Shown here: piece by piece, positions 5,384 to 63,786 of the stretch
Layout of the letters: each line of letters begins with the position of its first letter
How positions within the stretch are numbered: position 1 is the stretch's first letter
Source of the DNA: Verrucomicrobiota bacterium
GTDB lineage: Bacteria > Verrucomicrobiota > Verrucomicrobiia > Methylacidiphilales > UBA1321
NCBI GenBank assembly: GCA_013285645.1
Contig: JABDHJ010000002.1
Span: 1-64,000 of the forward strand
Direction: 5' to 3'
DNA length: 64,000 nucleotides
Translations under genes and position numbers: made by a program
Notes under the pieces: model-generated
The model's input: the letters and a program-made list of their open reading frames with translations, nothing else
Told to the model about the DNA's origin: nothing
The model's database searches: none

Positions 5384-5845
5384 TTAAGCCTGTGAAGTAG
5401 TGGTAGGGGCCTGATTTTGTCTAATCTTTGGCAGCATGAAGCCCGCAAGGATGAGCCAGATAAAACTTGGAAATCGCGTAAGCGGAATCAGGAATATTGC
5501 CTGAGGGATCAATAGAGCGAGACTGCTCAATTCTCCCATGACTGCCAAGATAAGGTCGAACACCACAAGCCATTTGGGAAGGGCCTTCAAAAATGCCGCC
5601 GTGATGGATAGTCCCGCGATCAAAAGTCCCATGGGCACGGAAAACCCGACGCCACCAAAAGCAAACGCCAGATAGTACAAGGAGGGGGTTACGCCTGTAT
5701 CCTGCGCAATTCCAGGACAGGTCATGACCCAAAGCACCAGCGCGGAAGAGATGATGCCGAATGCCGCCGCGAATCCACCAAATAGAGCGATATGCGTTCC
5801 CGCGGCGCGAACGCCGAGAAAATGATGACTGGACAATCCGTTCAA
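5384..5845 (-). CDS. small multi-pass membrane protein of unknown function
   Basis: About four hydrophobic segments over 153 aa; plausible start and stop. Confidence 0.6.
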   Translation of the reverse strand: MNGLSSHHFLGVRAAGTHIALFGGFAAAFGIISSALVLWVMTCPGIAQDTGVTPSLYYLAFAFGGVGFSVPMGLLIAGLSITAAFLKALPKWLVVFDLILAVMGELSSLALLIPQAIFLIPLTRFPSFIWLILAGFMLPKIRQNQAPTTTSQA

Positions 5846-9910: not shown

Positions 9911-9953
9911 CTTTCGAAGCAAAGTCTGCCCTTTTTACGGCCCTATGAGCCAC

Positions 9954-9990
9954 GAATCAAGGACCATTCTAAGAAAATGGTCCTCGATTC
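9954..9990. terminator. bidirectional hairpin terminator between convergent genes
   Basis: GAATCAAGGACCATT-CTAAGAA-AATGGTCCTCGATTC: 15-bp stem with one mismatch and a 7-nt loop, between convergent CDSs. Confidence 0.75.
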
Positions 9991-10091
9991 TTATTCGCGA
10001 CAATCATGATCAAGGTGATCAGGGGCGCGATGATAAAGGGCAGGCACAGAAGGGCCGCGACAAGATCGTCCATGGTTCTTTTTGGGTTCGG

Positions 10092-10871
10092 CTACCAAGG
10101 CACAGTACCGTTTTCATCGAAGTAGCCGCAGGTGGGGCCGTCTGCCGGAAGGGTCGCGAGGCGAATGGCGATCTCAGCACCTTGGGTTGGCGTCCTTGGT
10201 CCGCTGTGACCGTTGAGATCCGTGGCGCAATAGCCGGGATCGGCCGCGTTCACTTTGATCGGAGTGTCTTTCAGCTCCTTGGCAAAGGCGACCGTCACGC
10301 CATTCACTGCTGTCTTTGAGGAGCAATAAGCGAGGGCATTGATGGCACTATAGCCCCAGGTTGGATCGCTTCTTTGCGTCAGAGAGCCCAATCCGCTGGA
10401 CATGTTCACAATGCGTCCCGCTTGCGATTTACACAACAAAGGCAGGAAAGCTTTCGTTACAGTGAAAACACCGAAGACATTGGTCTCGTAGGTTTGACGC
10501 AACATGACCAACTCGATCTGGCTCGGAGGAATCACCTCAGGTTCGCCCGCCTTATTAAGCCGCCGCTCATTCACGATTCCGGCGTTGTTGACCAGGATAT
10601 CGAGTGCGCCAGAGACGTTCTCTACATGCAGTGCGGCAGCCTCAACGGATTGAGGGTCTGTCACGTCCAGGGGAACGCTATCGACCGAGAGTCCTGCCTT
10701 TTTGAGCGAGGCAGCTGCAGCTGCAATTCGCCCTGAATCGCGTCCTGCCATCCAGACGAATATTCCTGCCTCGGCCAAGATCCGGCTGATTTCAAATCCG
10801 ATTCCTTTGTTGGCTCCCGTGACTAGGGCAACCGGGGACGGTATAAGCTGACGATAAGAAGAGATGTCCAT
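10092..10871 (-). CDS. SDR family oxidoreductase
   Basis: 'VALVTGANKGIGFEISRILAEAG', 'NNAGI', 'YSAINALAYCSSKTAV'; start taken at MDISSYRQL, since the longer ORF runs into the upstream gene. Confidence 0.88.
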   Translation of the reverse strand: MDISSYRQLIPSPVALVTGANKGIGFEISRILAEAGIFVWMAGRDSGRIAAAAASLKKAGLSVDSVPLDVTDPQSVEAAALHVENVSGALDILVNNAGIVNERRLNKAGEPEVIPPSQIELVMLRQTYETNVFGVFTVTKAFLPLLCKSQAGRIVNMSSGLGSLTQRSDPTWGYSAINALAYCSSKTAVNGVTVAFAKELKDTPIKVNAADPGYCATDLNGHSGPRTPTQGAEIAIRLATLPADGPTCGYFDENGTVPW

Positions 10872-15136: not shown

Positions 15137-17170
15137 TCAGTCCTTTTTGTCGACCCTGCCAGGCTCGACTGTACCGTCATCGTGACTATCGATGCGTTCC
15201 TCCTTAAGGCGATGAAAGAACAGGACGAGATCGTTCCAACAACCGATGGTGAACCATACCGTGGTGATAATTGAGATGGCGAGAGGTAGGTAGATGCCGG
15301 TAATCAGCCAGTAATTGGCCCAGGCAATATTGGACCATGGATGGATTAAATACCAAGCGCTCCCAATTACGAAGATACCAAACCAGAAGATGCTCCAAAA
15401 AAAGATGCTGAGGGTAACCCAGCGATCAGGCCCGGAGAAGTGCTCATCGATGCCCACGAGATTGTGGAGATGAAAACGGCTTTTGACCGGTCTCGTGATC
15501 ACGACCTCGTTCGTAGCCTCAGGCTCCACGGCGTAACGGCCTCTATGTAGAAGACGATCCATGTCGTGCGGTTCGCGGCAGGTCAGGAGCGACACAGCGA
15601 TGTATCCAATCAGGGCCGCAAGTGTCGCATAGAAGCCGATTTCGGTGCCATTGATCGGCAATTGAGGGCCCAGATGATTCAGGAGATATTGTGACCAGGT
15701 CGAGGAAGTGATTCCCCAGAAATCCGTCAGGCTGTGACAGAGGCTGACACATGCCTGTTGCCGCAGGAGAATACCGCCGGTCGAAAGCAGCGAACCGAGG
15801 GCCAGGCCGGTCCATGCACCAGCGGTCGTACCCCGATTCCAGTAGAGGCCGCCGATAATGGCCGCTCCCGCGCCGCCCACGAAGATGGCCGTGGTGACGT
15901 TGAACCACATCGGAAGATATTCGGTTTGCGTGAAAAGAGCACCGAAGACAAAGGCAAACAAGGCCACCCCAATAATCGAGAGACGCAGGAGAATGATATG
16001 GGTGCGGGTGCTCAGTGGCTTCTTGCAAAGCGGAAGCACGACATCCTGGGCGAAGATGCTCCCCCATGAATGAAGGTGTTGGCCGTCGCCGCCGAAGATA
16101 CCCATCAGGACGACCGAAACCAGAAGGCCCTTGATGCCAATGGGAAGAATCGCGGCGAGGCCGATGGGCAACCGCATTTGCTCGCCTGTTTGGGGATCGG
16201 CGATGGTGGCGAGGCGATGTTGAATCATGGCCTGTCCCTCCGGTTGATGCAGGTAATTCATTGCGGTTACGGCGAGGAGAAGCATCGAGGTGCTAAGCGC
16301 AAAGCCGCGCCATCGGCCCAAAATAAAACCCATGCGCGATTCGTGGGGGGACGCGGCCGCCGAATTGAAACCCTGGTTGTTTTGCCACGCCATCGTCCCG
16401 TAGGCCCCTGTGATAATTGTCATGAGAACGTACCAGAGATTAAAGTCCTTGGCTGCGAAAGTATCGAAAGGATTGACCATCGATTGGCCGGGTGGATACG
16501 CGAGGAGCATGTCGCGGGTCTGATGCCAGTCAAAAACGATGACCAAAAATACACCGATAATGACGTAAAAAAGTTGCGAAATCATGCCTTGGATACAGTC
16601 GGCGATCATGACGGTGATCTGGCCGCCGGTGATCGCAATCAATGTAGTGATCGTCAGGAAACAACCCATCAGCATGAGATAGGTCGGAATTGCGAATGAA
16701 AAGAGATGTAGAGTCTGAGGCATATCCAAAAAATGGACCATGAATTTGCCTCCGATCACGGGAATGACTCCAAAGTTGAGGATGCCGGCGACAAAGCCGA
16801 GCATGCCGGTGGCGAGGCGAAATTTGCGGCTGTAACGCATCTCGAAAAACTGAGCGAGGGTGAGCGCGCGCGTCTGACGGTAGCGATATGTCACAAAGCC
16901 GCTGATCGCCAGGATCAGTCCCACCGGTCCTGCGAGTTGTCCCCACCACGTCACGGAAAAGCCCCCCTGGCTGAACCATTCAAACATGGCCACATAGCCG
17001 ATGGCCCCAGCCCCCATTTCGCTTCGGGCAGTTGAGAGAAGATAACGGCCTGCGAGACGTCCTCCTGACATGAAATCGGCCACGCTTTTTAGATAGCGAT
17101 TCGCATATAAAGTAACACTGGCGACAATGAGTACAGGAATGGCGACGATCAACCAGTCGATAAGATGCAT
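15137..17170 (-). CDS. sodium:solute symporter family (SSS) transporter
   Basis: Many TM segments; 'RYLLSTARSEMGAGAIGYVAMFEWF', 'ALTLAQFFEMRYSRKFR' typical of SSS proteins. Confidence 0.85.
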   Translation of the reverse strand: MHLIDWLIVAIPVLIVASVTLYANRYLKSVADFMSGGRLAGRYLLSTARSEMGAGAIGYVAMFEWFSQGGFSVTWWGQLAGPVGLILAISGFVTYRYRQTRALTLAQFFEMRYSRKFRLATGMLGFVAGILNFGVIPVIGGKFMVHFLDMPQTLHLFSFAIPTYLMLMGCFLTITTLIAITGGQITVMIADCIQGMISQLFYVIIGVFLVIVFDWHQTRDMLLAYPPGQSMVNPFDTFAAKDFNLWYVLMTIITGAYGTMAWQNNQGFNSAAASPHESRMGFILGRWRGFALSTSMLLLAVTAMNYLHQPEGQAMIQHRLATIADPQTGEQMRLPIGLAAILPIGIKGLLVSVVLMGIFGGDGQHLHSWGSIFAQDVVLPLCKKPLSTRTHIILLRLSIIGVALFAFVFGALFTQTEYLPMWFNVTTAIFVGGAGAAIIGGLYWNRGTTAGAWTGLALGSLLSTGGILLRQQACVSLCHSLTDFWGITSSTWSQYLLNHLGPQLPINGTEIGFYATLAALIGYIAVSLLTCREPHDMDRLLHRGRYAVEPEATNEVVITRPVKSRFHLHNLVGIDEHFSGPDRWVTLSIFFWSIFWFGIFVIGSAWYLIHPWSNIAWANYWLITGIYLPLAISIITTVWFTIGCWNDLVLFFHRLKEERIDSHDDGTVEPGRVDKKD

Positions 17171-17254
17171 GGATTTAGGCGAATTCTCCGGAAAAAAATG
17201 ACATCATGCAGACGGAGAACACAAAAGTGGCAATCGCATTTACAGAATGTTGAG

Positions 17255-20200
17255 TTATTTAAATATTAGATTATAGGCGATTTGCAGGCTCCCTTGGGTT
17301 TCTGTTAAAGTGATTTGTAGATCGGCAGTTTTGCACTTAATCAGCCAGACAACTGTGCTGGTCTCGAAGGCGTTTGACGTAAGTAGTTTTTTGATAGGTT
17401 CGCCGAATTGCTGTTGATACGCGGCTACTGCTTCAGACAAAGCGGGAGGTTGCGTAAAATTGGCGACGATTTTGCTTAACCGGGAGTTTTGAAATTCGAC
17501 TTCGATATTAGCCGGAGCGTTTAGAATAACCTCGGCCTCATAGATAACGATGGAACTGTTCGGATTCGGGGGCAGTTCAGGCCCACCAATGCTGGTTCTT
17601 ACGAAATTACTCTCGCGTAAAATCTGATGGACGGTGGCATAATCGTCGCCCCATTTGACTCCAGGCAACGGATTCCAAACCTCAGTTAAAGCGTGGTTGC
17701 TCGCAGTATTGTCGGTATTGCGAACGGAAGTAGTCGTAGGTTCGGTTGGCAAAGCGGGTTCTTCTGGTTTGGGAACTGCTGCCATGCCTCCGTAACTAGA
17801 CACGTTTAGCACGCTCATAAATAAGTCCTTGCTTCCATTCCATGATAACTCGTTTGCGCTTTCACTTCGCTCAAGCACTTTACGCAAGGCAAAATCATAA
17901 CCTTCCAAAAGGTAGGTAAAGTTCGTCGGGAACCAAAGATCGTACTTCACCGGATCAACCAAAATGGGCGCTCGACCGTAAGAACGAATTGCGAGGATCT
18001 GATCCAGCGGGGAGACGAATCCGCCCGAAGCCCGGGCGATGGAGGTGTCCATATCAAAATTCGTATTATGGGCATTATCGACCGCCGCAATAAAAATCTT
18101 CTTGGAAGGGATCGCTCCCTCCAACGGTCGCCCATCGGCACTGACCATGGCAAAACTGATGAATGGCTGGTTAAAATCTCCAACCAGAATTCCGTCGTGG
18201 AACTGATAACGACCGCCGGTTTTTCCTACATAGGCATGGACTAATGGCGCATCGATGATCATTCGTTGGCGATCAGGATCGTAGGTAACCGTTCGATCCA
18301 TGGTATCCTCAGCGCCCATCGGGCGGTCGACCTGCATACCCCCCGTCGGCTCTCCAGTGAAGGAGATAACGCTGCCCTGCGTGAAGGTGTCGGCGCGTTG
18401 ATCGATGCCGTTAAAATGTTCGTAGCTAAAAATGGCGTCGTTCGCCAATTGGTAAACAACAGGTGATTTCGCCGGAGGGATGGCACCTTCCAAAAAAATG
18501 CGTCCAGCAATCGCAATCGTCGAACCCATGACCGGATCGAAGGCAAAGTGAGTCCCCGACCAGTAATCCTGCTTACTGATATATTGAAGCGACCCGGCAA
18601 GATACATTTCCACCGGCGTGCGATCAGAATTGCGTTCGTTGGGTGCATGATAAAAATGAAAAAAGACTCCATCCCAATCCTGTCGACCAGCCAGTGCGGC
18701 TACCCTTAGCGGAAATTCTCCTCGGAACGGATTCGTGTTTCCCGAGTTAGTTTCATAGACTAGGGTGGCTTTGTCTTTAACCGTATGATTTTCGAAAACG
18801 TACATTGATGGCGGTCCGGTCAAACTGGATGTCAACGCCCATTGATAGTTACTGATGGAAACGGTATCTCCCGACAGGGCATCGGCAGCGAGCCAGGGGA
18901 TGCTTGGGGTGAATTGTGTGTCGAAGACGAAGGGGATGACATTCACCCCCACCCCCGCCGGGGCCTGAGAACGGCAAAATTCGTGAAAATCCCGGTTAAA
19001 CATCACCACGAGGTCAACTATGAAGTGGACATAATCGTCCCGGCGCGCCTTGGGGAAGCTATTCCGCTCGTTGAGTGTGGGACCAAGATGAACGACACCG
19101 TGGTCTAGAGATTCATCGTTACCCAGTGTCCCCCAAGCTTGCTTGAGCCCGGTATCGTTATGATAGCGAGTCTTAAGCCATGCGTTCCATTTTGTCCGCA
19201 GTTCGGCACGAAAAAAAACCGGCCAGTTGTCCAACTCGTTCTGCAAAGCTTTCATAACGAAACCGTTCTCATTCTGGACTTCCCAGACGGCGACAGCCTC
19301 CTCCTCGGCGTAGCGCTTTCCCGTGTAGGGATTAACATGGTTGAGAAAGGCGGTCGCGTTGGCCTTAAACACCTTTTGCGTCCGATCATCGAAGTAAAGC
19401 AGTAACCCGTCGATCATTCCCGGTCGCTTGTACTTGCCTAGAAGGGTGTGGATTCCTTCTTTCCATTGCGGCCAATCGGCTCCTCCGGCGATAAAGGAAT
19501 CGTCCTGCACTAGCCCGTTAAGATTATCGTTAACCGGAGGGGAACCACCCAATCCTCCTGCAACCCAAATAAAGAATCCCTGTTTCTTTAACTCTGCGAA
19601 AAAGCGATCGTATTGATCCATAAAAGAACCGTCGCCCATCTTGCTTTGAGGGGGGACGCCGGTTTTGATGGATGCATCATTCCAAAAATCCTTAGGCCCC
19701 CAGAGGCGAATGGCGTTGAAACCGACTTTTCTGAGACGGGCCACCATATCGAGGTTCGGCGAATCATTTCGGTTGAGCCCCCAAAGACGCAATCGCTGAT
19801 CTCCATAGTAGAGTTTGCCATTCTTGACTTGCGCATACACTCCGATCGTCGGCTTCACCGGATTATCAAAAATGTCGGCTTGCGAATACTTTTTGAAAAC
19901 GATGGTCAGGAGAAAATCACGTTCCGATTCCGGCATCAGATCCATTTTAGGAACATCTACTCCACCGTCTGCCATCAGCAATATTCCATAATCTGGCCAT
20001 ACACCCGTGATCCATTTTTGTAGAAGTTGGGCAAAAGCTACACGAGTTTCGTGAGGAGTTTCCACATCTTGTCCATTCAGACTTAGATAGCCCAGCGCCT
20101 GCGCCTGGTAATCCGTGCCCGATTGAATTGCACCTCCCTGATAATCCCGCAACATCCGGTAGATAGATATTTTTACGTTCTTCGGAACAACCCCATCGAC

Positions 20201-20542
20201 CTTGAGTTGAAGTGCCGCTTCCTGAAGATCTTCCGGCTTCACAAGTATTCGTCGCAGTAGCGGTAGGTCGGCGTGGATAATTAATTTTCCATCCAACGAT
20301 CCGCCAAGAACTAATCGAGGTGTTGCAGCTTTCGTCCCGTTGAGCGGAGCAGAAGCAGTTTGATTTATTCCATCGAGAGGCAAAGACTGCGAGGCCAATA
20401 AGGGAATCGTGAGCGTTACGGTCGAGTCTTGAGACGAATCCAGAAAGTTTTGTCCGGGTGCCACCGAGTTAAAAAATCCTCCCACTAACCCTACACCCAG
20501 GACTAGACATGCGAGATGATTGCGATGTGTCGGGTAATTCAT
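17255..20542 (-). CDS. large secreted GH5-like (TIM-barrel) glycoside hydrolase candidate
   Basis: Signal-like N-terminus; 'YGDQRLRLWGLNRNDSPNLDMVARLRKVGFNAIRLWG', 'AVWEVQNENGFVMKAL' (acid/base Glu context). Confidence 0.65.
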   Translation of the reverse strand: MNYPTHRNHLACLVLGVGLVGGFFNSVAPGQNFLDSSQDSTVTLTIPLLASQSLPLDGINQTASAPLNGTKAATPRLVLGGSLDGKLIIHADLPLLRRILVKPEDLQEAALQLKVDGVVPKNVKISIYRMLRDYQGGAIQSGTDYQAQALGYLSLNGQDVETPHETRVAFAQLLQKWITGVWPDYGILLMADGGVDVPKMDLMPESERDFLLTIVFKKYSQADIFDNPVKPTIGVYAQVKNGKLYYGDQRLRLWGLNRNDSPNLDMVARLRKVGFNAIRLWGPKDFWNDASIKTGVPPQSKMGDGSFMDQYDRFFAELKKQGFFIWVAGGLGGSPPVNDNLNGLVQDDSFIAGGADWPQWKEGIHTLLGKYKRPGMIDGLLLYFDDRTQKVFKANATAFLNHVNPYTGKRYAEEEAVAVWEVQNENGFVMKALQNELDNWPVFFRAELRTKWNAWLKTRYHNDTGLKQAWGTLGNDESLDHGVVHLGPTLNERNSFPKARRDDYVHFIVDLVVMFNRDFHEFCRSQAPAGVGVNVIPFVFDTQFTPSIPWLAADALSGDTVSISNYQWALTSSLTGPPSMYVFENHTVKDKATLVYETNSGNTNPFRGEFPLRVAALAGRQDWDGVFFHFYHAPNERNSDRTPVEMYLAGSLQYISKQDYWSGTHFAFDPVMGSTIAIAGRIFLEGAIPPAKSPVVYQLANDAIFSYEHFNGIDQRADTFTQGSVISFTGEPTGGMQVDRPMGAEDTMDRTVTYDPDRQRMIIDAPLVHAYVGKTGGRYQFHDGILVGDFNQPFISFAMVSADGRPLEGAIPSKKIFIAAVDNAHNTNFDMDTSIARASGGFVSPLDQILAIRSYGRAPILVDPVKYDLWFPTNFTYLLEGYDFALRKVLERSESANELSWNGSKDLFMSVLNVSSYGGMAAVPKPEEPALPTEPTTTSVRNTDNTASNHALTEVWNPLPGVKWGDDYATVHQILRESNFVRTSIGGPELPPNPNSSIVIYEAEVILNAPANIEVEFQNSRLSKIVANFTQPPALSEAVAAYQQQFGEPIKKLLTSNAFETSTVVWLIKCKTADLQITLTETQGSLQIAYNLIFK

Positions 20543-41331: not shown

Positions 41332-41769
41332 ATGATCTTGATTGGTTATTACCTAGGCGCGCGAATAGGGGATAGCTCGCAGATGAGGTGGAGTTGCGTT
41401 GATTTTGAAGCTTCCACCATCACGTTTCGCCAACAGAAGAAAAAGCAGGGATCGAAAGCGAAGCCGGTTACGACGGTGCTAATGCCGGAACTCAGGGATT
41501 ACCTGATGACTCAACGGCAGGCTCGTAAAGTTGGCGAATTTGTACTTCCCAATTTGGCGAAGGAACCGGTTACGACGCGTGAAATTTGCCTGTACGAGAG
41601 ACCTTGGGTCGAAGAGGAGCCTAACTGGGCTCCGAGCTCCTTTGTGGAGAGAATAAGGCGTTGGTTCTCTGACACGGCAAATGGAAGTCTCCATAGGAGT
41701 GATCAGCCGCTCGAGCCTTTGCTTTTCCAGTCTCCATACAAGCTTGTTCTGCCCCGTGATAGCCTCTAA
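41332..41769 (+). pseudogene. truncated tyrosine recombinase/integrase
   Basis: 'MILIGYYLGARIGDSSQMRWSCVDFEASTITFRQQKKKQGSKAKPVTTVLMPEL' = catalytic Arg-I block; lacks the HxxR and Tyr end and the N-terminus. Confidence 0.7.
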
Positions 41770-42226: not shown

Positions 42227-42511
42227 ATGGCTGTCTCATCTCATCTGCGTAGCTTGGCTGACCGCGTTCGCAAGGAACGCGAGATCCAAAAGTTAACCCA
42301 GCGGGAGGTAGCCCGTCGGGCGCAAATGTCGCTGCGATCTTACCAAGACTTCGAGTCGACCGGAAACATAGCCCTCAAAAAGCTGGCGGCCGTACTTTAT
42401 GTTCTAGGCCGGGAGAATGATTTGAGCGGGCTGGTTTCGGCACAGCCGAGCTACTCCTCGCTGGATGAGTTTGAGAAGAGCCGACCGGTGGGAGCCGGCA
42501 ATCGGCCATGA
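42227..42511 (+). CDS. hipB: HipB-like XRE antitoxin
   Basis: 'LADRVRKEREIQKLTQREVARRAQMSLRSYQDFESTGNIALKKLAAVLYVL'; ATGA overlap with hipA. Confidence 0.8.
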   Translation: MAVSSHLRSLADRVRKEREIQKLTQREVARRAQMSLRSYQDFESTGNIALKKLAAVLYVLGRENDLSGLVSAQPSYSSLDEFEKSRPVGAGNRP

Positions 42512-43755
42512 AGAGAGTCACCGTTCGCTATCACGGGCAGGACGTGGGTGAGATCGGCACCAATGGCCGTGACACTCTCTTCTTTTACAGTGGAGCTTGG
42601 CTCCAGTCGGGTATCGAACTTTCCCCCCGCCTGATGCAATTGCGTCGAGAACCCTATCCAGGTAACGATCCCGACTTTTATCGATTGCCTCCACTTCTTG
42701 CCGATTCACTACCCGATCGCTATGCCCGGCAAGTGATGAAGGCCTGGTTTGAAAAACACCAGGGTGCGGGTTACGTACCAACACCCGTGGAGCAACTGGC
42801 CTATGTGGGCGAACGCGGACTGGGAGCACTGACCTATCATCCCAGTGTCGATGACTTCCCCAAGGCGCTTCTCCGTAACCTGGACCTGAGGCAACAGGAA
42901 AAATTGGCCCAGTCCCGGCTCGCGAAGCCCAGCGCCAAGTTCATTGAGCAAATGCGCCAGGGAGTTGGCTCCGTGGGCGGCCGCTATCCCAAGATTATCT
43001 GTGCCGAGAATCCGAAGACAGGTGAACTTTACGAAGACGATCCTCGCTTGGAAGGAAGCTTTCGGCGCTGGATCATCAAATTTTTCCAAGAGGAGACTCC
43101 TTATGGCTGCCAGACTGAATGGGCCTTTGCGCAAATGGCTCGTAAGTCGGGCATTGTCGTCCCAGAAACGCGACTTTTTCAGAGCATGGAAGGCCGTTCC
43201 CGGCGGATTCATTTCGGCATCGAACGTTTTGACTGGATCGGTGGCGAGCGGGTTCATGTTGCTTCCTTGGCCGCGCTGACCGGTCGACCTTCATCTGACA
43301 CTTCATTTGATTACCGGGACTTCCTCTCCTTTACCCTCGAATTGACCCGAGATCTCCAGGAGGTCGCGGAAGTGTTTCGCCGGATGGTCTTCAACATCGC
43401 CGTGGGCAATGCGGACGATCATACCAAGAACCACGCCTACCGCTATCGGAACGGGCGCTGGACCTTGTCCCCAGCTTACGATGTCACCTTTTGCCCGGGA
43501 ACTCCCGGAGCGCCAACCGTACGCGCCATGCCGGTTGGTGGGACGGGATTGGACATCACCCGGAATCAGGTTCTGGAACTGGGCGATGAAGCCAGCCTCA
43601 AGAAATCGAGCTGTCGCACGATCATTAACGAAGTGTGCCAGACTTTATCCAAGGCCGATACCTACTTGGAAGCCGCCAGAATTCCGAAGGCACAACGCAA
43701 GCGGTTACTCGATTATTTCATCGAGACGATCGGACACTTATCGTCCCTTAAATGA
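42508..43755 (+). CDS. hipA: HipA-family serine/threonine kinase toxin
   Basis: 'VTVRYHGQDVGEIG', 'NIAVGNADDHTKNHAYRYRNGRWTLSPAYDVTF' kinase motifs. Confidence 0.93.
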   Translation: MKRVTVRYHGQDVGEIGTNGRDTLFFYSGAWLQSGIELSPRLMQLRREPYPGNDPDFYRLPPLLADSLPDRYARQVMKAWFEKHQGAGYVPTPVEQLAYVGERGLGALTYHPSVDDFPKALLRNLDLRQQEKLAQSRLAKPSAKFIEQMRQGVGSVGGRYPKIICAENPKTGELYEDDPRLEGSFRRWIIKFFQEETPYGCQTEWAFAQMARKSGIVVPETRLFQSMEGRSRRIHFGIERFDWIGGERVHVASLAALTGRPSSDTSFDYRDFLSFTLELTRDLQEVAEVFRRMVFNIAVGNADDHTKNHAYRYRNGRWTLSPAYDVTFCPGTPGAPTVRAMPVGGTGLDITRNQVLELGDEASLKKSSCRTIINEVCQTLSKADTYLEAARIPKAQRKRLLDYFIETIGHLSSLK

Positions 43756-44966: not shown

Positions 44967-46160
44967 ATGTTCGTGGCACGCAGAGGGAATCCATATCGAG
45001 CACCGAAGGTATACAAGGCCCACAAGCCTCTGGCGGATGGTCGTGTCTTGACCCAGTGGGTTGTTGATATGCGCCTGCATGACGGCAAGCGTCGTCGTCT
45101 CTTTTTCGATTCTGAATCCGAGGCCAACATTGCGGCCAAAGTCGAGACAAACAAACTCGCCAATGAGGGGCTCCGCGCCTCTCAAATAGAACCAGGGCTA
45201 CGAGAGGAAGCCATCAAGTGCAAAGACCTCCTAAACGGGCTTGGAGCGACCCTTGAGGATGCTGTCAGGTTCTTTCTGGCCAATCGTCCCACTACCGACA
45301 TGAAAACGCTGGAGGATGCCATCGAACACTTTATTTCTAGCCGTAGAGCCAAGGTGAATCGTTCCCGCTCAGTGGCAACGTATAAAGGACATCTAAAGGC
45401 GTTCAAAGCTGAAAAATACGGACGCGTACAAATCCATGAAATTACGACGCAAAAGATCGAAATTTATTTTGAATCTCAGAAATTCGCTGCGAAAACGAGA
45501 AATAACCACCTCGGGACATTGAAAACGTTTTTCTTGTACTGCACCAAACGAGGGTGGTGTCCGCGAAATCCGGCTGAACCACTGGAAAAAGCGAAGATTC
45601 CTCGTAAGCGTCCCGTTGTCTTTACCCCTGCCGAGGCACGAGCCCTAATGACAGCCGCCTTCACGCACTATCTGGATACGCTGGCAATCATAGCCATCGG
45701 TCTGTTTTCCGGGGTGCGCTCCTGCGAATTGATGAAATTGGAAGTACACATGATCAAGGTTGTCCAACGAGTCATCGACATTCCGGCGGAGATCAGCAAA
45801 ACCGGTCAGAGACGCCTAGTGCCGATATCCGACAACCTTGCGGCATGGCTGGCGCTGGCCCAGTTGCCTAAAGAGGGAAAGATCTTTGCACATGGGCAAA
45901 ATGCTTTTTACAAAAATTATGTAGCGATACGTGCCGCAGCCGATGTGCAAAAGAAAGCCAACGGAATGAGGCATAGCTTTGCTACCTATCATCTTGCTCG
46001 TCACTCAAACGCAGGACTGACCTCGCGGGCCTGTGGCCACAGTATCGCTATTCTCGTACGAGACTATGATGCCGTGGCAACGCAAGAGGAAGGCGAAGCA
46101 TATGCATCCATCTTCCCTGATGAGGAAAGTAAGGTCATCCAGATGGCAGCGGTCGCCTGA
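44967..46160 (+). CDS. tyrosine-type site-specific integrase
   Basis: SAM-like domain 'RSVATYKGHLKAFKAEKYGRVQIHEITTQKIEIYFE', catalytic 'GLFSGVRSCELMKL', 'GMRHSFATYHLA'. Confidence 0.88.
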   Translation: MFVARRGNPYRAPKVYKAHKPLADGRVLTQWVVDMRLHDGKRRRLFFDSESEANIAAKVETNKLANEGLRASQIEPGLREEAIKCKDLLNGLGATLEDAVRFFLANRPTTDMKTLEDAIEHFISSRRAKVNRSRSVATYKGHLKAFKAEKYGRVQIHEITTQKIEIYFESQKFAAKTRNNHLGTLKTFFLYCTKRGWCPRNPAEPLEKAKIPRKRPVVFTPAEARALMTAAFTHYLDTLAIIAIGLFSGVRSCELMKLEVHMIKVVQRVIDIPAEISKTGQRRLVPISDNLAAWLALAQLPKEGKIFAHGQNAFYKNYVAIRAAADVQKKANGMRHSFATYHLARHSNAGLTSRACGHSIAILVRDYDAVATQEEGEAYASIFPDEESKVIQMAAVA

Positions 46161-50869: not shown

Positions 50870-52606
50870 TTACACTTCATCTAGGCTGGATAAAATGTCA
50901 GCTAGGGCGCTCAATTCCTTCTTCAATTTGAGCCGGTCAGCTTTCGCCCATTTTTCGAGAGGCGTTTTTTGAATTTTCGCGTGCCAGTAATGTGAAATGG
51001 CCTTGACGTGATTGGACAGGCCGCGAATGCCAGGGACTTTCTTCCCGGCTGATTCCGTCCTTTCCTCTGGGGCGGGCAGTATGCCGCAAGCGATGTAGGC
51101 CAGCCGCAAGGTGGTGATTTCGCCAGCATTTATCACATGTGAGAATTTCTCGGCTAAGCTCATGTAGCGATAGGCTGTCGCGGCGGAAATTTTCGTGCAT
51201 TGCTCTGCCAGCCAAGTTCCGAAACCGCCATGTTTGATGCGCTCGTTAGCCGCAAGAAGTCGAAAGCCTGACTCCATCGCGCACTCGACCGCGTTGGCGG
51301 CAATCTCCCTGGCTTCACTGGCCTTGGTTACCGCCTGGAGGTGGTAGTCCTCAATCTCGCCCGCAAGCTTTGAAAGTGAATGATCTTGCAATGATTTCAT
51401 TTTTTGTTCGGCTGAAACCGCCAGCGACACCAGCTCTACTACGAACGAAGTTCCGGTCGATCCCAACTTGTAAAACGCTTCCGGGATTCCTCGAAGTTGA
51501 AGGTCTTTGGGCCACTCGTCCCAGTTACCACCATGGCTGTCGCTCAAGTCGAGAGGTTGGCCGTTTTCAACCGGGCATTTGCCAAGCTGCTTCACAAAAA
51601 GCGCCGTGCCGGTTTTCGCGCAGTCATCGCGAATGGACCTGGCCCAACCGAGGTCGAATGGTTTCGCTGATGGGCCACTTTCACCACCTACGATGCACCA
51701 ATCGATGCCCTCTAGGTTCAAGTTGATCGACTCCCAAAGTGGCTCGACGCTGACGCCTTTATATTTTGATCGAACCTTTTTCAACTTCTCGACCCGGTTC
51801 ACCGTGCTGCGAGAAGTAACGCTTGTCATCGCCACTAGATTGTCGGGCCACTCGACGTTATGCCTGTGTAGTTGGTTTGAGAAATGGGCCATTTTTCCCG
51901 GCCTCTTCGTAAGCCATAACCAGACGTGCCGAGACCCCTTAATGCTTTGGGCGACATCGATGATCTCACGTTTTAGAAACGCAAAGTTATAATTATCCTC
52001 TGTGTCGGGTTCATGGTTCCTTTTTGGATCTTTGCTTAGCGCATCACCCATGTCAGAGACAAAAATCAAACGGGGTAGGCCATTAAGCCAGGTTTTATGA
52101 ATCGGCGGTATTACCTTGCCAGATTTGGTTTTCCTGGACCTTCCTATTCTGGGCTTGCCCTTCAGATCAGTCGCCCTGGCTAGGTCGTGACACTTCGCCG
52201 CAAACTCAGTTACTGTTTCAAACGCGGGCGCGTAGCCTTTATTTCCTCCCCGCACCAAGTGCAGCCTCCCGGCATAACATTTAAAAGGTTCCTTATAAGC
52301 ACCCGTGATTTTCGAAATTACGGATTTGGGATTGGCGGCGCTTTTAATCGAAGCCGGAAGGCCTGCGAAAATGATTTTGATGATAGCGTCCTGATGCTTC
52401 CAGAGTTCAGTTGCGGGGTAATCCTTCATGGCATCGGCCACGATCATTTTGAAACTCGAAGACGGAGATTCTGGAAATTGCGCCTGCAACTCCTTAACCA
52501 CTCCGAGTTGCAACCCTTTGTTGGTGGGCCACAACTCACACCCGTCGCATCCCATTATCGGATTTACGGTGGAATCGCACCACTGAATCGGGGTCGTGTG
52601 GGCCAT
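50870..52606 (-). CDS. DUF5131 (phage Gp37/Gp68-like) protein with C-terminal DUF3102-like region
   Basis: 'IQWCDSTVNPIMGCDGCELW...KCYAGRLHLVRGG', 'WLWLTKRPGKMA', 'DWCIVGGESGPSAKPFDLGWARSIRDDCAKTGTALFVKQLG'; C-terminal 'GFRLLAANERIKHGGFGTWLAEQCTKISAATAYRYMSLAE'. Confidence 0.8.
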   Translation of the reverse strand: MAHTTPIQWCDSTVNPIMGCDGCELWPTNKGLQLGVVKELQAQFPESPSSSFKMIVADAMKDYPATELWKHQDAIIKIIFAGLPASIKSAANPKSVISKITGAYKEPFKCYAGRLHLVRGGNKGYAPAFETVTEFAAKCHDLARATDLKGKPRIGRSRKTKSGKVIPPIHKTWLNGLPRLIFVSDMGDALSKDPKRNHEPDTEDNYNFAFLKREIIDVAQSIKGSRHVWLWLTKRPGKMAHFSNQLHRHNVEWPDNLVAMTSVTSRSTVNRVEKLKKVRSKYKGVSVEPLWESINLNLEGIDWCIVGGESGPSAKPFDLGWARSIRDDCAKTGTALFVKQLGKCPVENGQPLDLSDSHGGNWDEWPKDLQLRGIPEAFYKLGSTGTSFVVELVSLAVSAEQKMKSLQDHSLSKLAGEIEDYHLQAVTKASEAREIAANAVECAMESGFRLLAANERIKHGGFGTWLAEQCTKISAATAYRYMSLAEKFSHVINAGEITTLRLAYIACGILPAPEERTESAGKKVPGIRGLSNHVKAISHYWHAKIQKTPLEKWAKADRLKLKKELSALADILSSLDEV

Positions 52607-52703: not shown

Positions 52704-53375
52704 TTAGCCCCAATAGGTTTTTTCGCCGGGACTTCTCTCTCCTTCGATCCAGATGTCCGACAAATCCAAAAAGAAGTGCTCGTAATCCGGCTCTCCGGGC
52801 TTTCCTGGAATCAAAAATGGACCGCTGAGTCGATAATTGCCAAACTCCTTCCTCGCGGCAGCTTGACCAATAATGCAACGATTACCTTCACCAGCTTTAC
52901 TGATTCGGGCGGCGTAATTGATTGGGCCGCCTACGAGAAGGCGGTGTTCATTTAACAGCCTGCTTTCGATTGTGGACACGTCCATTCTTCCAAACTCGAC
53001 GGCAATTTTTATTGATGGGCCACCGGGAGAAAATGCCCAGTCATCTGGAAAACGGGATTGCCCAAGTGAAATATATTCGCACATCCGATCCGTATCTTTC
53101 GCAATGCCAAAACATGCCTTCGCCGCGCTCTCACCGTCTGGAAGAATCCCAAGAATAGCATCTCCCATAAAACCGACCACTTCGCCACCTTCGATTTCTA
53201 TTTCTCCAATTGCACCTGCCAAAGCATCTCGTGTGAATTGAGCAATTGAGTCGTTTACCGTTTCGGCAGAGCTCACCATACCACTGAAGCCATTCAAATC
53301 CACGATCATCGCAAAAGCCTCAATTTGTCCTATTTTCGGAAGAAGCATTCCAGGCTTGATGGGTCTCTTTTTCAT
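52704..53375 (-). CDS. class III adenylate/guanylate-cyclase-type nucleotide cyclase
   Basis: 'FAMIVDLNGFSGMV' (metal Asp), 'GGEVVGFMGDAILGIL' (second metal Asp), 'LLVGGPINYAARISKAGEG' (N-x3-R transition-state block). Confidence 0.82.
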   Translation of the reverse strand: MKKRPIKPGMLLPKIGQIEAFAMIVDLNGFSGMVSSAETVNDSIAQFTRDALAGAIGEIEIEGGEVVGFMGDAILGILPDGESAAKACFGIAKDTDRMCEYISLGQSRFPDDWAFSPGGPSIKIAVEFGRMDVSTIESRLLNEHRLLVGGPINYAARISKAGEGNRCIIGQAAARKEFGNYRLSGPFLIPGKPGEPDYEHFFLDLSDIWIEGERSPGEKTYWG

Positions 53376-53881: not shown

Positions 53882-54472
53882 CTATTTTCGGCGGCGTTCA
53901 TAGCGACTCTCTAGGTCGCGCCTCTTACCCTCAAAGCTCGAAATGAAAGCAGTGATAAGCATAAAAATGTCACCTCTTTCCTTCTTCTGTCGCTCCAATA
54001 TCACGACGTAGTCATATTTTTTCAACCAAACGTAGGTGCGCACCACAGTCCCCCCACCACGTGTGCTTTCCTCATCACAATCCCAGGCCGTGACCTCGGA
54101 ATCGGCTTCGTAGTCAAGAATGGGTTTCGCCCAAGGCAACCTGCCCGCACGCTCTGGATCAGGGTAGCGTTCCTTCATATCATGACGGGTCGATCGGTTA
54201 TAGACCCACTCATAGCGGGTCACTAAATGCCAAAAGGCCTCTTCGAATTGGTACTTATCTTCGCGTTCAATGCGCCGGTTGTGCCAAATTGGTAATGTAC
54301 GAAAACGTGGATACCCTTGCTTGAAATCTCGCTCGAAGATAATATAAAGCGCCCTTATAAACGTATCCCAGTTGTCGTTATACGGGACATGAGGTGGCAA
54401 CCAACTGGGTCTTGCTAGAGCCACTGGAGGTGCGGCGGGCGACGCTGGTGCTGGAATCGGTTTCTTACTCAT
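53882..54472 (-). CDS. small hypothetical protein, possibly a BECR-fold nuclease
   Basis: 'TYVWLKKYDYVVILERQKKERGDIFMLITAF' resembles C-terminal motifs of phage-type BECR nucleases; ATGA overlap with the methylase gene. Confidence 0.55.
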   Translation of the reverse strand: MSKKPIPAPASPAAPPVALARPSWLPPHVPYNDNWDTFIRALYIIFERDFKQGYPRFRTLPIWHNRRIEREDKYQFEEAFWHLVTRYEWVYNRSTRHDMKERYPDPERAGRLPWAKPILDYEADSEVTAWDCDEESTRGGGTVVRTYVWLKKYDYVVILERQKKERGDIFMLITAFISSFEGKRRDLESRYERRRK

Positions 54473-57400
54473 AAGAGCAGAGCGTCACACGTTTCCACGG
54501 TCATTTTGGTCTCACCGGGAGGGCTGTTCCCAGCAAGTGAAAAATCTAGTTTTTCTTCCAGCAATGACACCAAAGCCTGTTTCGCAGGTGAGGTCTTATC
54601 CGACTTAACTCGGCGGGCATAACCCACAGCACCCAGCAAGAGATCGGCTACCTGCATCAGGCGAATTTCATGACTGCGGACATGTTGTAAAGTCGGCTTT
54701 TCTTCGGGCTTGAGTGAAGGACTGTTGGCCTCAAGCAAGCGCTGCAATTCACGAAGTTTCTCCCTACCGCGCGTGTCCTTCATATCGAGGAAGGCCCGGT
54801 ACAGATTTTCTGGTTCCATTGCCCCGCGTAGGAGGTAGTAATACAGCACGTAGTAAATGTGTTCCTGCTTTTCCTCCGGCACGCGAGCGTATTCGCGCTG
54901 TTTGTCCGGCAATACGAGCGCACGGAACGAAACGTCTTTGGCGGCTATGAACCATTCCAGCACCGCCTGATAAAAATCAAGTTTACCAGGACTGACCTTC
55001 GTCCACTTGAATTCGAAGTGTCTGGGGAAATCGTAGTGTAGGCAAAGGGCAGTAAGTTCGGTGTTGAGGCCATGAGCTCGGTCTGCTGGGCACGACAGAA
55101 GTCCCATGAGCATGATTGGCTCCTTGTCGCGGGGAAGATGACGACTTTCGTCACAATAGAGATGGAGTGTGGCGCGAGCAGCGAGATGCTCCTCCGTCTT
55201 GCCTTGTTTGACTGCCAAATTGCGGCGCTGAGCAGCAGCTAATATAGGATAACGCCTGGCATACCAGTCTTCGACTTCCCGAATGTCTGCTTCATTCAAC
55301 CCGTAGGCATCATACACAAGCCGATCTATTTCCAACTGCTCGTTGCTGGCATAATCGTAAGATGGATTAGCACGCTGGGTTGAAATTATTTTTTTTACAA
55401 GTGCGCCAAGAGTAGCTGAGAGATCCACCGGAACAATCAACTCACGAATATTGTCTGATTGCGTACTGACAGTGTGATTCTGGATAGCCTTAATCCACAT
55501 TTTAGCCACCTTTGAACACATTACTCCGAGAAGAGGGTGAAGAAGGCCTTCCGGAGGAATAAGTCTGCTGCCCTTGACATCGAATACACCTGCTCCACTC
55601 AATCGAATGGTTGGTGAATAAACGCCGACATCTGACCATGTCAGCCCAGGAACAAAGTAGTAATCTGGATTTCTAAAAATACCCGCTGGGGTCGTAAGAA
55701 AGTGGGGTTTGTTGGGGGGCACTGGCTTTCCCTTAGCGCGAAATACTTCGGCCATAGTTCGGGTCGCGATTGCATCGACGGCCCACTCGCTCCAATCAAT
55801 GAAGTAGTTTGTTGGCACCCAATAGTTGGGCATCCAACCTTCGTCGCTCTCAGATTCTCCTCCTTTATCATAAGGCACAATATAGCGACCGCCAAAGTAG
55901 CGGTCAGAATTCCGATTATTTTTTGAGATGCCGTGTTCGATGACAGACTGACGTAACTCCTCGTTAGAGCTTATCCGCTCAAAATCGGTGTCTGTAAGCA
56001 AGAACTGTAGATAGTCCTTAATAGATCGATACGAGCCATGTGCGTGGGGATTCTGAAAAAGGTATGAGTCGTTGTCGCCTGTTTGCAGACCAACTTTTAC
56101 ATCCGCACAATCACCGAGTTTCAGCAGTTGTACGACACGGCCATTAAACTGGACGTTACGGATAACCGCTGATCTACCCCCAATAGTCCCGGGTTTGACT
56201 GGCGCGGTTGTGTCATTCATCAAGGCAAACAACTTTGGCGAAGCGATGAAGAAGGGTAAGTTGGCGTTTGTGCTAACGAGCGACTGGCGGTAGTGATAAA
56301 TGGCATAGGTCCGATTCGTCACATTTTGACGGCGTGCAAAACCCTCGGTCTGATAAAGCAAATGCAGAAAGCGTTCGTATTGGTCATGAATGGAGACGTT
56401 GGTGAGGTCCGCCATTTGACAAGTGTGGTCTGCTGCCGCAGTGCCGCGTTGGCAGAGAATTACAGCGCAGTTCACAACGGCCTTAAAGGTGTCACCCGAC
56501 ACACGGACCATTTTGTGGACCCTATGCTCCAGCATTTGTTCGCGCAAAGGCCGGTGCGTCTTTATCGTCATAAACGTGTCGCTGACGATGTATGACAGCA
56601 CTCCATTCTCCGCGAGAGGGCAATGTCGCTGACGTGAACCAAGAAAACGAGCTATGAACGCTCCATAGGGATCCTTCGATCCAAGTGCTAGGACAGTCTG
56701 GACTTCATCAGGAATCTTTGTGCCGCCGTAAGGTGGGTTGCCTATCACGATATGGAAGGGGGCACTATTGCGGATATCACCATCGTTGATGAGTTCGGGA
56801 AAAAATGTTTCGACGTTAAAAAAGGGCGCAGCCAAGGTGGCGTGCTTGAACCATTCTGCAATCCAAAGTGAATCCTGTTCCTGGCGGATCGTGCGCCGGT
56901 CATGTTCACTAATGCCAGTGGGTTTGATACCTTTAGTTTGCTCAGCGAAACCCGGATATAGAGTTGCCAATTCTCGGCCAATTTGCGCAGCAATCTGGTC
57001 GCGGCGTAAGCGTGTAGTTAGGGGTTGGTAATATTCCTCTCTCGCGGCGCGCAGATTTGCCAGCACGGGACCTGACAGCATTCCATGTTCAGAATCGCGT
57101 AGCGTGTTACAACACAGCAGATTGGTTTCGAGGTTTGGCAATGCTTGGAGACCATAGTTGTGGGCGCGGTCTTCGGGATGTACGTCCTGTTCGATGACCA
57201 GTGTCAGGAAGAATCGAAGTTTGGCAATTAGCGATGCGAGCGGCTGGATATCGAGTCCGTAAAGATTCTTCTGAATCAGACCGAGCTTGCGGAGATAGTT
57301 ATAACTTTTGCCCTCCATGCCGCGAGCTGCGTCTGAGCGGATAGCTGCTGGTAAACGAGCAAGGAGGCGTTGTTTCCAGCGTTCGTTATCTTTATCAACT

Positions 57401-59166
57401 CGCGCAAGCAATTCGACCATCCGGTGCAACATTCCCATTGGGAAAGCTCCTGAACCGCAAGCTGGGTCGAGCACGCGCACAGCGTCGAGAGCCTCTACTA
57501 CTTTATCGGCGATGGGTGAAAAATCGACATCATCTGGCAATTCGTAACAAAGGCGCGATAGAAGCTGAGTGTCTTCGCGTGATGCGCTGCTTTGCTCGAA
57601 ACGGGTGCGGAGATGCAAGTGCAAGGCTTCATTGACCATGTAATCGACGATACGACGCGGGGTGTAATATGAACCGGATGCTTTCCGGGCGCTTTCAGCA
57701 GCTGCTTCGTCGTCAGGGTCAATTTCAGCAAGTAGATTTTCAAAAACTAGGCCGAGGAGTTCGGGGTCAAGCGCCACATCTTCTTCGAGTGGCGTGTTTT
57801 CCGCAACGGTGAAGCGATAGCGGTCAAAGATGCGATTGATGCCTTCGACAGTGCGCTGACTTTGGCGTCGTCCTGTTCCGATAGTGATGCTGAAACCATC
57901 TTCGCGTCGGGCATAAAATAATTTATTCGGAATGCGAAACGCGCCGTCTTCAATAGTGTCAGAGGCGTTATCCTCGGTAAGTTTGTCAAATAGCCCGCCG
58001 TTGAGATAAGGAATGCGGTCAAAAAAATCGTAATTAAAATCCTCGGGAAGATGGCTTTTGCCCAAGTAGGCTAATTTTTTTAACTCGGCTGTGGCGACAG
58101 TCTGGTCAGCGCTAGCTTCCGGGCCGGATTTGCGCCGTTGGTTCATCGGCTGGTTAAGCGCTTGAAAGAATATGTTCTGCAATATTCCGCGATAATATTG
58201 GGTGCCACTGAGGAAACGGCGATCGTCCTCGCCCCGAGTGAGTACACGGCGACGGTCAGCAATGTCATATAGCTCCAGCAACTCTGCCGGAATTAGACCC
58301 ATCTCCTTCAGAAACCACGCGAACAGCAAGCGGCAGATCAGGCGCACGGTGAATTCCTGGGTGGCACGGGCCCGGTGCTTCGGGTCATCGGTCACATGAT
58401 CAGGCAGTCGGGCCAGTTTGATTTCTGAAATGGCCCAACTAAACCAGTCCACGAGTTCGCGGTAAAACCGCTGGTTGAGTTCCTGGGTGGAGAGGATTTT
58501 CTGCCAGGCGTCATCTAGTTGTGCAAACGTACTGATTATCCCCGCTTCTTCGCGGAGCCGGTGAAGCGAAAAACGCTCAAGCAGTTCCAGATGTGCCCGG
58601 TGTGGCTGGCGACAGTCTATGTCGCGAATGAGCGAAACACGGGTAAGCACATCGCGCGTGCCATCGCGAAGGTTCTTGCGACGATTGATGATTGCAAGCG
58701 AAACAGATGTGCCATGTCGGAATAGCACAAGCACAGGCATGGGCACGAGCCGATTAAGCGCGCGTGTAATATTAGATAATTCCGTTCGCGTAGGCGCTTC
58801 GCCGGATGCTGGTGTCGTCAAATCCACAGCGAAGAACACGTAAGACTTAATTTCTTTGGAGTCGAAGGCTGTAGAATCCTCAAGCAGTAAACCCTGCTGA
58901 CCGTTGGCGGCGAGTTCCGGACCAGCGATTTGAAAGAGGAAATCGATGGAGCGCCAGCGAGATAGCAAAGCGTTTTGCTCGGTTAATGAACCCTTGGGAT
59001 CGAGTAGACGCTGTAATTCAACCACCGAATGAATGGCAAGTCTGCGCGGGCTGTGATAACCGAGGGTTTGAAAGAGTGATAGAGCTCCCGCCTCAATATC
59101 GCCCTCGGCGAGCACCCCAAGGCGAGTAACAATTTCAGAACGAAGATTGGTGGCGTTGGCGGGCAT
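54469..59166 (-). CDS. Eco57I-like N6-adenine DNA methylase fused to a C-terminal DUF3800 domain
   Basis: 'VLDPACGSGAFPMGMLHRM', 'FHIVIGNPPYGG'; C-terminal 'LHLYCDESRH...FEFKWTKV...YYVLYYYLLRGAM...LDMKDTRG...VRSHEIRLMQVADLLLGAVGYARR'. Confidence 0.88.
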   Translation of the reverse strand: MPANATNLRSEIVTRLGVLAEGDIEAGALSLFQTLGYHSPRRLAIHSVVELQRLLDPKGSLTEQNALLSRWRSIDFLFQIAGPELAANGQQGLLLEDSTAFDSKEIKSYVFFAVDLTTPASGEAPTRTELSNITRALNRLVPMPVLVLFRHGTSVSLAIINRRKNLRDGTRDVLTRVSLIRDIDCRQPHRAHLELLERFSLHRLREEAGIISTFAQLDDAWQKILSTQELNQRFYRELVDWFSWAISEIKLARLPDHVTDDPKHRARATQEFTVRLICRLLFAWFLKEMGLIPAELLELYDIADRRRVLTRGEDDRRFLSGTQYYRGILQNIFFQALNQPMNQRRKSGPEASADQTVATAELKKLAYLGKSHLPEDFNYDFFDRIPYLNGGLFDKLTEDNASDTIEDGAFRIPNKLFYARREDGFSITIGTGRRQSQRTVEGINRIFDRYRFTVAENTPLEEDVALDPELLGLVFENLLAEIDPDDEAAAESARKASGSYYTPRRIVDYMVNEALHLHLRTRFEQSSASREDTQLLSRLCYELPDDVDFSPIADKVVEALDAVRVLDPACGSGAFPMGMLHRMVELLARVDKDNERWKQRLLARLPAAIRSDAARGMEGKSYNYLRKLGLIQKNLYGLDIQPLASLIAKLRFFLTLVIEQDVHPEDRAHNYGLQALPNLETNLLCCNTLRDSEHGMLSGPVLANLRAAREEYYQPLTTRLRRDQIAAQIGRELATLYPGFAEQTKGIKPTGISEHDRRTIRQEQDSLWIAEWFKHATLAAPFFNVETFFPELINDGDIRNSAPFHIVIGNPPYGGTKIPDEVQTVLALGSKDPYGAFIARFLGSRQRHCPLAENGVLSYIVSDTFMTIKTHRPLREQMLEHRVHKMVRVSGDTFKAVVNCAVILCQRGTAAADHTCQMADLTNVSIHDQYERFLHLLYQTEGFARRQNVTNRTYAIYHYRQSLVSTNANLPFFIASPKLFALMNDTTAPVKPGTIGGRSAVIRNVQFNGRVVQLLKLGDCADVKVGLQTGDNDSYLFQNPHAHGSYRSIKDYLQFLLTDTDFERISSNEELRQSVIEHGISKNNRNSDRYFGGRYIVPYDKGGESESDEGWMPNYWVPTNYFIDWSEWAVDAIATRTMAEVFRAKGKPVPPNKPHFLTTPAGIFRNPDYYFVPGLTWSDVGVYSPTIRLSGAGVFDVKGSRLIPPEGLLHPLLGVMCSKVAKMWIKAIQNHTVSTQSDNIRELIVPVDLSATLGALVKKIISTQRANPSYDYASNEQLEIDRLVYDAYGLNEADIREVEDWYARRYPILAAAQRRNLAVKQGKTEEHLAARATLHLYCDESRHLPRDKEPIMLMGLLSCPADRAHGLNTELTALCLHYDFPRHFEFKWTKVSPGKLDFYQAVLEWFIAAKDVSFRALVLPDKQREYARVPEEKQEHIYYVLYYYLLRGAMEPENLYRAFLDMKDTRGREKLRELQRLLEANSPSLKPEEKPTLQHVRSHEIRLMQVADLLLGAVGYARRVKSDKTSPAKQALVSLLEEKLDFSLAGNSPPGETKMTVETCDALLL

Positions 59167-62928: not shown

Positions 62929-63786
62929 CTATCGATAGAGGAAGCTGCGGTCTCCATTCTTTTTGCGCCATCTCTCATATCCATAAAGGTCCGGGCCGCC
63001 CAGATTTATCACGTACTCAACCCCGAAAATCGCAATCACAGCATAAAATTCGCCCCGCACTCCCACTATCGGCTTAACCGGGTCTTCAATCCAAAGAAGG
63101 TTCCATTCATGCAGCATCTGGAATCGTGGATAGAGGTTGTCTGAAAAAGCAAAATCAGCCGGATAAATCCGACGAATGACGACGGGCCAGACGACGCCCG
63201 GGCGACCTTGACGAACATAAGTGCGTATATCGTCGAGTTCGACCTTGTTAACGATTTCTTCATTCCATTTCGGATCATCCATGCCTCTTTGCGCAAGAAT
63301 TTCCAATCCGATCTTTGCGATAAAACGGGATGTTTCGTAGCCAGTTGGAGGAAGCTCGGCAGCAGGAAGGTAGAGGCTTCCCGACTTCTGAGTGCGCAGG
63401 GTCTCAATAAATCGGGCTTCATCTTCTCCCGGGGCTGCCGAAACGCTGAAACTACTATCGTCTTCTCGACGAAGATGTATTTTGGAGCGGCTTGCAGGGT
63501 GCAGGCCCACACCGGGGGTATAGAGGTCTCTCTTGTTTTGAATTCCCATCTCGAAACGGGAATTTTGCCCATACGAAGACTCCAAAAACGGAGCCTCGAC
63601 CTTTCTGGCTAGATAATTGTTACATGCGTCGCAAACCCAACCCGGCGCAAGGATGTGTTCTTTATTCCCCAGCGACTCAGGGATTATATGTTCCTTCGAT
63701 TGACTGGCATCGGAGGGGCACTTGCAGAAAATGCATTTCATAACCGAAAGCTTCTCTCCAGAGTATGCGATTATTCCAGCGTTCAT
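62929..63786 (-). CDS. HNH endonuclease-like protein
   Basis: 'MKCIFCKCPSDASQSKEHIIPESLGNKEHILAPGWVCDACNNYLA' CxxC...EHIIP...CxxCNN; start may be at 63741. Confidence 0.8.
   Translation of the reverse strand: MNAGIIAYSGEKLSVMKCIFCKCPSDASQSKEHIIPESLGNKEHILAPGWVCDACNNYLARKVEAPFLESSYGQNSRFEMGIQNKRDLYTPGVGLHPASRSKIHLRREDDSSFSVSAAPGEDEARFIETLRTQKSGSLYLPAAELPPTGYETSRFIAKIGLEILAQRGMDDPKWNEEIVNKVELDDIRTYVRQGRPGVVWPVVIRRIYPADFAFSDNLYPRFQMLHEWNLLWIEDPVKPIVGVRGEFYAVIAIFGVEYVINLGGPDLYGYERWRKKNGDRSFLYR

Follow-up and report, generated by a model that had tools for sequence, protein, structure and literature searches.

An RlfA-type DUF3800 domain fused to an adenine methylase, and the recurrent placement of rlfAB in restriction-modification operons

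What does a DUF3800 domain do at the end of a DNA methylase? One protein encoded in the window—the whole 64,000-nucleotide stretch of Verrucomicrobiota DNA analyzed here—carries such a tail, and the original prediction was that the fusion may supply the nuclease of a single-polypeptide methylase–nuclease working with the PLD-SNF2 translocase. We asked whether the joint protein is genuine, to which family its tail belongs, and how that family relates to restriction-modification (RM) systems. Loci used for comparison are given by L numbers.

A conserved methylase–RlfA fusion

The two domains lie in one open frame, as predicted, and both exceed their Pfam cut-offs: Eco57I covers aa 633–889 (57.5 bits; cut-off 25.3) and DUF3800 (PF12686) covers aa 1335–1516 (40.8 bits; curated cut-off 21). 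The motifs DPACGSG and IGNPPY and all of the DUF3800 motifs named in that prediction were found in the protein sequence (Table 1). The domain had been placed at 54469–55173, an interval that includes the stop codon and a few more codons than the domain proper. The PADLOC model PDC-M04A matches the tail far more strongly than Pfam DUF3800 does (aa 1333–1557; E 3e-62). For the methylase part, the closest solved structures are BREX PglX/BrxX and BseCI.

Table 1. Features of the fusion locus (window coordinates)
Feature	Position	Strand	Basis
EVE-domain protein (modified-base reader family), 149 aa	53372..53821	(-)	Pfam EVE E 6e-32
RlfB homologue (PDC-M04B), 196 aa	53882..54472	(-)	PADLOC E 2e-35; PHROG 16230 'replication protein' E 2e-8
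Methylase–RlfA fusion protein P0001, 1565 aa	54469..59166	(-)	Open frame; Pfam/PADLOC; architecture conserved in L006–L010, L039, L056, L103
RlfA-type DUF3800 domain (PDC-M04A), predicted RNase HII-like fold; candidate catalytic D1339, E1340, E1385, D1461, D1508	54496..55170	(-)	Profiles, alignments, predicted structure
Eco57I/PglX-like N6-adenine methylase part and C-terminal linker, aa 1–1324	55195..59166	(-)	Pfam Eco57I; PglX/type IIG PADLOC models
Methylase motif IV NPPY, aa 810–813	56728..56739	(-)	Sequence; invariant in alignment A6
Methylase motif I DPACGSG, aa 567–573	57448..57468	(-)	Sequence; alignment A6, invariant except C at aa 570
PLD nuclease–SNF2 translocase P0002, 1101 aa	59172..62477	(-)	Pfam PLDc_2, SNF2, Helicase_C; PADLOC C3a139 'HKD+Snf2' E 3e-137

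A linker of ~30 aa joins the methylase end to the DUF3800 start. Between the methylase end and CDES there is no ATG and one in-frame TTG, the latter without an obvious ribosome-binding site. The linker, WYARRYPxLAxAQRRNLAxKQGKTEEQL, is common to the window, L006, L007, L008, L009, L010, and L039; L056 has a shorter one, and L103 also carries the fusion. The combination of methylase and DUF3800 is found in at least eight independent assemblies (L006 and L101 are one contig and were counted once). The window comes from a fragmented, 66% complete genome assembly, but an assembly or frame-fusion artifact is already refuted, because independent assemblies encode the same fusion, most with the same linker: the fusion is a real, conserved joint protein.

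How often the fusion arose is a separate matter. When 34 RlfA domains were placed on a tree, nine fused tails grouped together in a single supported clade; the fused tail of L056 is sister to the unfused RlfA of L107 in a separate sister branch. Because of that grouping, the fused state needs two changes on the tree, which leaves one common origin of the fusion uncertain. The closest tail to that of the window comes from L039 (82%), a viral-collection contig on which PLD-SNF2, the fusion, and rlfB are accompanied by a partial EVE frame. Two further observations concern the methylases. On the L006 contig, two more large methylases related to the fusion protein (1349 and 1506 aa; 1647–5696 and 15856–20376, plus strand) flank the fused system. 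In L052, an insertion sequence with a DDE_3 transposase (9529–10626, minus strand) sits at the methylase end and splits the methylase from the RlfA part.

The RlfA domain and its partner RlfB

The fusion tail belongs to one DUF3800 subfamily, that of phage P1 RlfA and the PADLOC candidate PDC-M04A. P1 RlfA itself matches PDC-M04A at 1e-95, and the window tail is 32% identical to P1 RlfA over its length; relatives in phage records comprise the RlfA proteins of P1, P7, and phages related to them (32% identity), plus two others. An AlphaFold model of the domain, built on 42 sequences, reached pLDDT 92.3 and pTM 0.91. Against the PDB, its Foldseek ranks 1–21 are all RNase H2, HII, or HIII (best E 5e-5; probability 1.00 for ranks 1–20 and 0.98 for rank 21) at modest query TM-scores of 0.37–0.48, which bears out the RNase H fold anticipated for the tail. 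The acidic residues at CDES and LDxKD proved conserved as well, with a third acidic site at Q-x2-D besides: D1339 and E1340 (CDES), E1385, K1387, D1461, K1463, and D1508 are invariant in both RlfA alignments, one partial slice excepted, and all candidate catalytic carboxylates (DE..E..D..D) are retained. The DE pair resembles the RNase HII motif DEAGRG. From the modeled fold and these residues, we infer that RlfA is a putative RNase HII-like nuclease. Searching solved structures by sequence with P0001, RlfA, and RlfB returned nothing useful.

The predicted fold agrees with published accounts that give DUF3800 an RNase H fold showing a catalytic rearrangement (PMC10910872, PMC12669027). The accessory proteins of CRISPR V-A2/VI-F treated there share DUF3800, the RNase H fold, and attachment to a defense system; in contrast to the window protein, they are TPR-DUF3800 proteins beside Cas12a2, and the passages on them mention neither a methylase nor RlfB (PMC10910872, PMC12669027). 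No Rfam DUF3800-associated RNA motif was found near the window locus or the stand-alone pairs, where only tRNAs were detected.

In the window, the RlfA-type DUF3800 is followed directly by rlfB, and the two genes overlap by 4 bases (ATGA). Because rlfB adjoins in the window, in P1, and in viral contigs (rlfA then rlfB in 49 of 54), the tail makes up one half of a fixed two-gene module whose other half is RlfB. The earlier description of DUF3800 proteins as usually stand-alone holds for the family and overlooks this pairing of the RlfA subfamily. P1 and the window share both protein families, their order, and overlapping genes, and a direct comparison of the two RlfB proteins gives 26% identity (E 2e-10); the PHROG matched by the window protein (Table 1) is also the one to which P1 RlfB belongs. 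The P1 genes, however, are separate, lie after repL, and have no adjacent RM gene, whereas the window RlfA is fused to a methylase. Likewise, the window proteins match both the A and B models of PDC-M04 strongly, but the A component is here a methylase tail.

RlfB offers fewer handles. Its AlphaFold model is confident (pLDDT 94.8), it matches no Pfam family, and its fold finds no confident match in the PDB. The second-ranked hit, toxin chain 7vd7_A (probability 0.51, E 0.16), was too weak to use, and a BECR/RelE-type RNase, considered from the conserved H82 and R108, was set aside. Its one clear structural relative is an uncharacterized viral model. PADLOC lists the rlfA–rlfB pair as candidate defense (PDC-M04); a literature search found no anti-phage test of rlfAB/PDC-M04 and no experimental report on PDC-M04. 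In P1, rlfA and rlfB were scored non-essential for phage growth (PMC10695390), which is consistent with an accessory role and argues little for a necessary one in replication. Separately, L055 encodes a 216-aa protein (8478–9128, minus strand) between hsdS and hsdR in which the first ~80 RlfA residues are joined in frame to RlfB, an internal deletion keeping the frame.

Restriction-modification loci with and without rlfAB

The window locus is an RM system composed of a PLD-SNF2 translocase-nuclease and an adenine methylase. The PLD-SNF2 gene lies upstream of the fusion gene and the EVE gene downstream of rlfB; across fused loci, EVE directly follows rlfB in nine of ten. The PLD residues H123 and K125 (HxK), the GSSN motif, and E159 are invariant in eight aligned PLD-SNF2 sequences, and the protein is likely the restriction subunit. 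Hma/DUF499-type systems (PMC7641849, PMC12839542) have a comparable make-up: a PLD nuclease and SWI2/SNF2 joined in one protein, together with a methylase and a stand-alone EVE protein. The window differs in its RlfA-fused methylase and the presence of RlfB, and no DUF499-type protein was seen among the neighbors examined. Membership in BREX and in DISARM was rejected, as the 66% complete source genome yielded no match to PglZ and none to PF09369 (DrmB, MZB/DUF1998-type).

Close relatives of this core pair lack the module. Among 388 genomes surveyed, 48 carry P0002 relatives at E 1e-100 or better, and neither RlfA nor RlfB was detected in 18 of the closest PLD-SNF2 loci (52–68% identity). In 14 of these 18, a methylase relative stands beside the PLD-SNF2 gene with sequence present on both sides; three others end inside the methylase (contig or stretch end), and one has no recognized methylase relative. 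Because the 14 informative loci hold close PLD-SNF2/methylase relatives without RlfA and RlfB, RlfA is dispensable for the core pair and is an add-on rather than a required part.

Elsewhere, rlfAB often has a modification gene on one side and a restriction gene on the other. Of 20 stand-alone rlfA genes, 9 have a type-I-type gene (Pfam N6_Mtase or Methylase_S) no more than 8 kb away, where 0.35 would be expected (P 1e-11), under a test that assumes random placement and leaves defense islands and relatedness uncorrected. The order hsdM-hsdS-rlfA-rlfB-hsdR occurs in L098, L131, and L132 and, with extra genes, in L051 and L046. The placement of rlfAB between hsdS and hsdR is found in Verrucomicrobiota genomes (L046, L051, L098, L099) and likewise in the viral contigs L131 and L132. 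A Phyllobacterium plasmid is annotated as hsdS-hsdM-GIY-YIG-hsdS-DUF3800-hypothetical(RlfB)-hsdR. Other RM types are represented too: in L045, rlfAB is flanked by a type III Mod and by a Res that contains ResIII and RE_endonuc domains; in L053, it follows a type III Mod and precedes a ResIII protein; in L048, it comes after a type ISP-like methylase; and in L044, it is near a PLD helicase. L107 holds the unfused version of the window system, with PLD-SNF2, a YhcG nuclease, an Eco57I/TaqI_C methylase, RlfA, and RlfB. Among other DUF3800 subfamilies, run as a control, 3 of 11 were near type I genes (P 2e-4; L027 G290:C13, L034 G159:C3, L037 G015:C179), so the linkage may extend beyond RlfA. In an incomplete literature search, we found no paper tying DUF3800 or rlfAB to RM systems.

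The association has limits. No RM gene accompanies rlfA at L047, L050, L054, L058, L063, or most viral contigs; because many phages and plasmids carry rlfAB without an adjacent RM gene, coupling is not obligatory in cis. In viral contigs of at least 20 kb, rlfA lies within 5 kb of an end in 22 of 34 (9.8 expected), as would be expected for prophage cargo, although contig trimming could contribute.

A possible accessory effector and its rivals

On the basis of the computed fusion, fold, residue conservation, pairing, and RM linkage, we propose that rlfAB is a portable RM-linked accessory effector, with rlfA here fused to the methylase of a PLD-SNF2 RM system; we give this reading an even chance of being right. 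In this model, an RM system of PLD-SNF2 translocase-nuclease and adenine methylase would have acquired rlfA and rlfB as a two-gene module and joined the former to its methylase, and the effector would be coupled to the RM complex both physically and genetically. RlfA would be a nuclease of the RNase HII-like type, and RlfB, the small protein that constantly accompanies it, would regulate or complete it. The RM proteins may keep RlfA silent while modification and restriction function, and a phage that blocks or evades restriction may thereby release it to act on RNA or RNA:DNA hybrids in a PrrC-like manner. RlfA's nuclease activity, substrate, silencing, and trigger are all putative.

This proposal draws on the homology of RlfA and RlfB to the P1 pair, the constancy of the pair, its RM linkage, and its insertion in RM operons, together with the fold and residues, the PrrC precedent, P1 non-essentiality, PADLOC candidate status, and end-enrichment in viral contigs. 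The ribonuclease PrrC is linked to a type I RM system, which keeps it silent and also mediates its activation (PMC2610378). PrrC is encoded as a latent accessory ribonuclease within the EcoprrI RM locus (PMC2610378), and stand-alone rlfAB is likewise inserted in RM operons (hsdS-rlfAB-hsdR, Mod-rlfAB-Res), several pairs lying between hsdS and hsdR. PrrC, by contrast, has an ABC ATPase part, whereas RlfA has an RNase HII-like predicted fold and no homology to PrrC; the distribution of rlfAB extends to type III and other RM operons, and its latency is presumptive. Counting against an effector role are the many phages and plasmids with rlfAB and no RM gene beside it, a covalent methylase fusion that does not need a release mechanism, and an RlfB without a recognized fold or catalytic family.

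More tentatively, rlfAB could be a general guard effector, an RNase HII-fold nuclease with RlfB as a new partner fold. At least four RM classes, as well as phages such as P1, would have recruited it; the RM complex would keep it silent, and it would be set free once a phage blocks or evades restriction. If so, P1's two orphan genes would gain a function, PrrC would have a second, unrelated counterpart, and the window would hold its covalent form. The analysis ties the P1 rlfA–rlfB pair, which had lacked an explanation in this textbook phage, to recurrent insertion in several RM operon types; RlfA has a concrete predicted fold and candidate active site, and a natural fusion ties it to a methylase. 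The role of rlfAB becomes testable in E. coli through P1 mutants and cloned RM operons.

A somewhat unlikely competitor dispenses with the latent toxin state: RlfA would be a second, constitutive restriction nuclease, guided by the methylase to unmethylated sites and nicking DNA, R-loops, or RNA:DNA hybrids on invading DNA beside the PLD nuclease. Fusion to a target-recognizing subunit, the RNase HII-like predicted fold, and an EVE reader in the same operon would all suit such a function. It leaves RlfB unexplained, however, and sits poorly with the presence of the pair in type I and III operons already equipped with an endonuclease and with related PLD-SNF2/methylase pairs that manage without RlfA.

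We regard as unlikely the view that rlfAB is replication or recombination cargo of phage origin, found near RM genes for no other reason than that defense islands and prophages accumulate both, with a fusion that is neutral or aids expression. The P1 annotation 'possibly associated with lytic replication' and the phages carrying rlfAB without RM speak for it; the recurring slot within RM operons, the conserved fused architecture and linker, the intact catalytic residues, and the non-essentiality of P1 rlfA and rlfB (PMC10695390) speak against it.

The original prediction itself, a type IIG-like single chain with the DUF3800 tail as endonuclease and PLD-SNF2 as translocase only, now appears very improbable. 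A nuclease-fold domain does share a chain with a methylase that resembles type IIG and PglX models, but the separate PLD-SNF2 protein has an intact, invariant nuclease motif, its close relatives lack both RlfA and RlfB, and RlfA ordinarily has a gene to itself, together with a partner of its own. That the tail supplies the nuclease is also unsupported by type I and III operons, where the pair accompanies an HsdR or Res already present.

Several neighboring genes were noted in passing. In the window, a 223-aa protein with weak Pycsar cyclase matches (52704–53375, minus strand; PADLOC PycC, E 1.6e-7) overlaps the EVE gene by 4 bases; BLAST did not find it at the other fused loci examined. A 578-aa protein (50870–52606, minus strand) contains DUF5131 (E 1e-35) and DUF3102, with DUF5131 relatives also in L006 and L016. 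An HNH_5 endonuclease gene (62929–63786, minus strand) lies upstream of the PLD-SNF2 gene. Just before the defense genes, a HipA-like protein and a tyrosine integrase (42508–43755 and 44967–46160, plus strand) suggest an integrated island, and a 145-aa ORF (41332–41769, plus strand) holds phage-integrase and Prok-E2_A segments in one frame, perhaps a remnant fusion. The slot between the PLD-SNF2 and methylase genes holds a YhcG (DUF1016) PDDEXK nuclease gene in L008 (8949–9989) and L107 (2238–3410) and a Fic protein in L056 (3774–4820).
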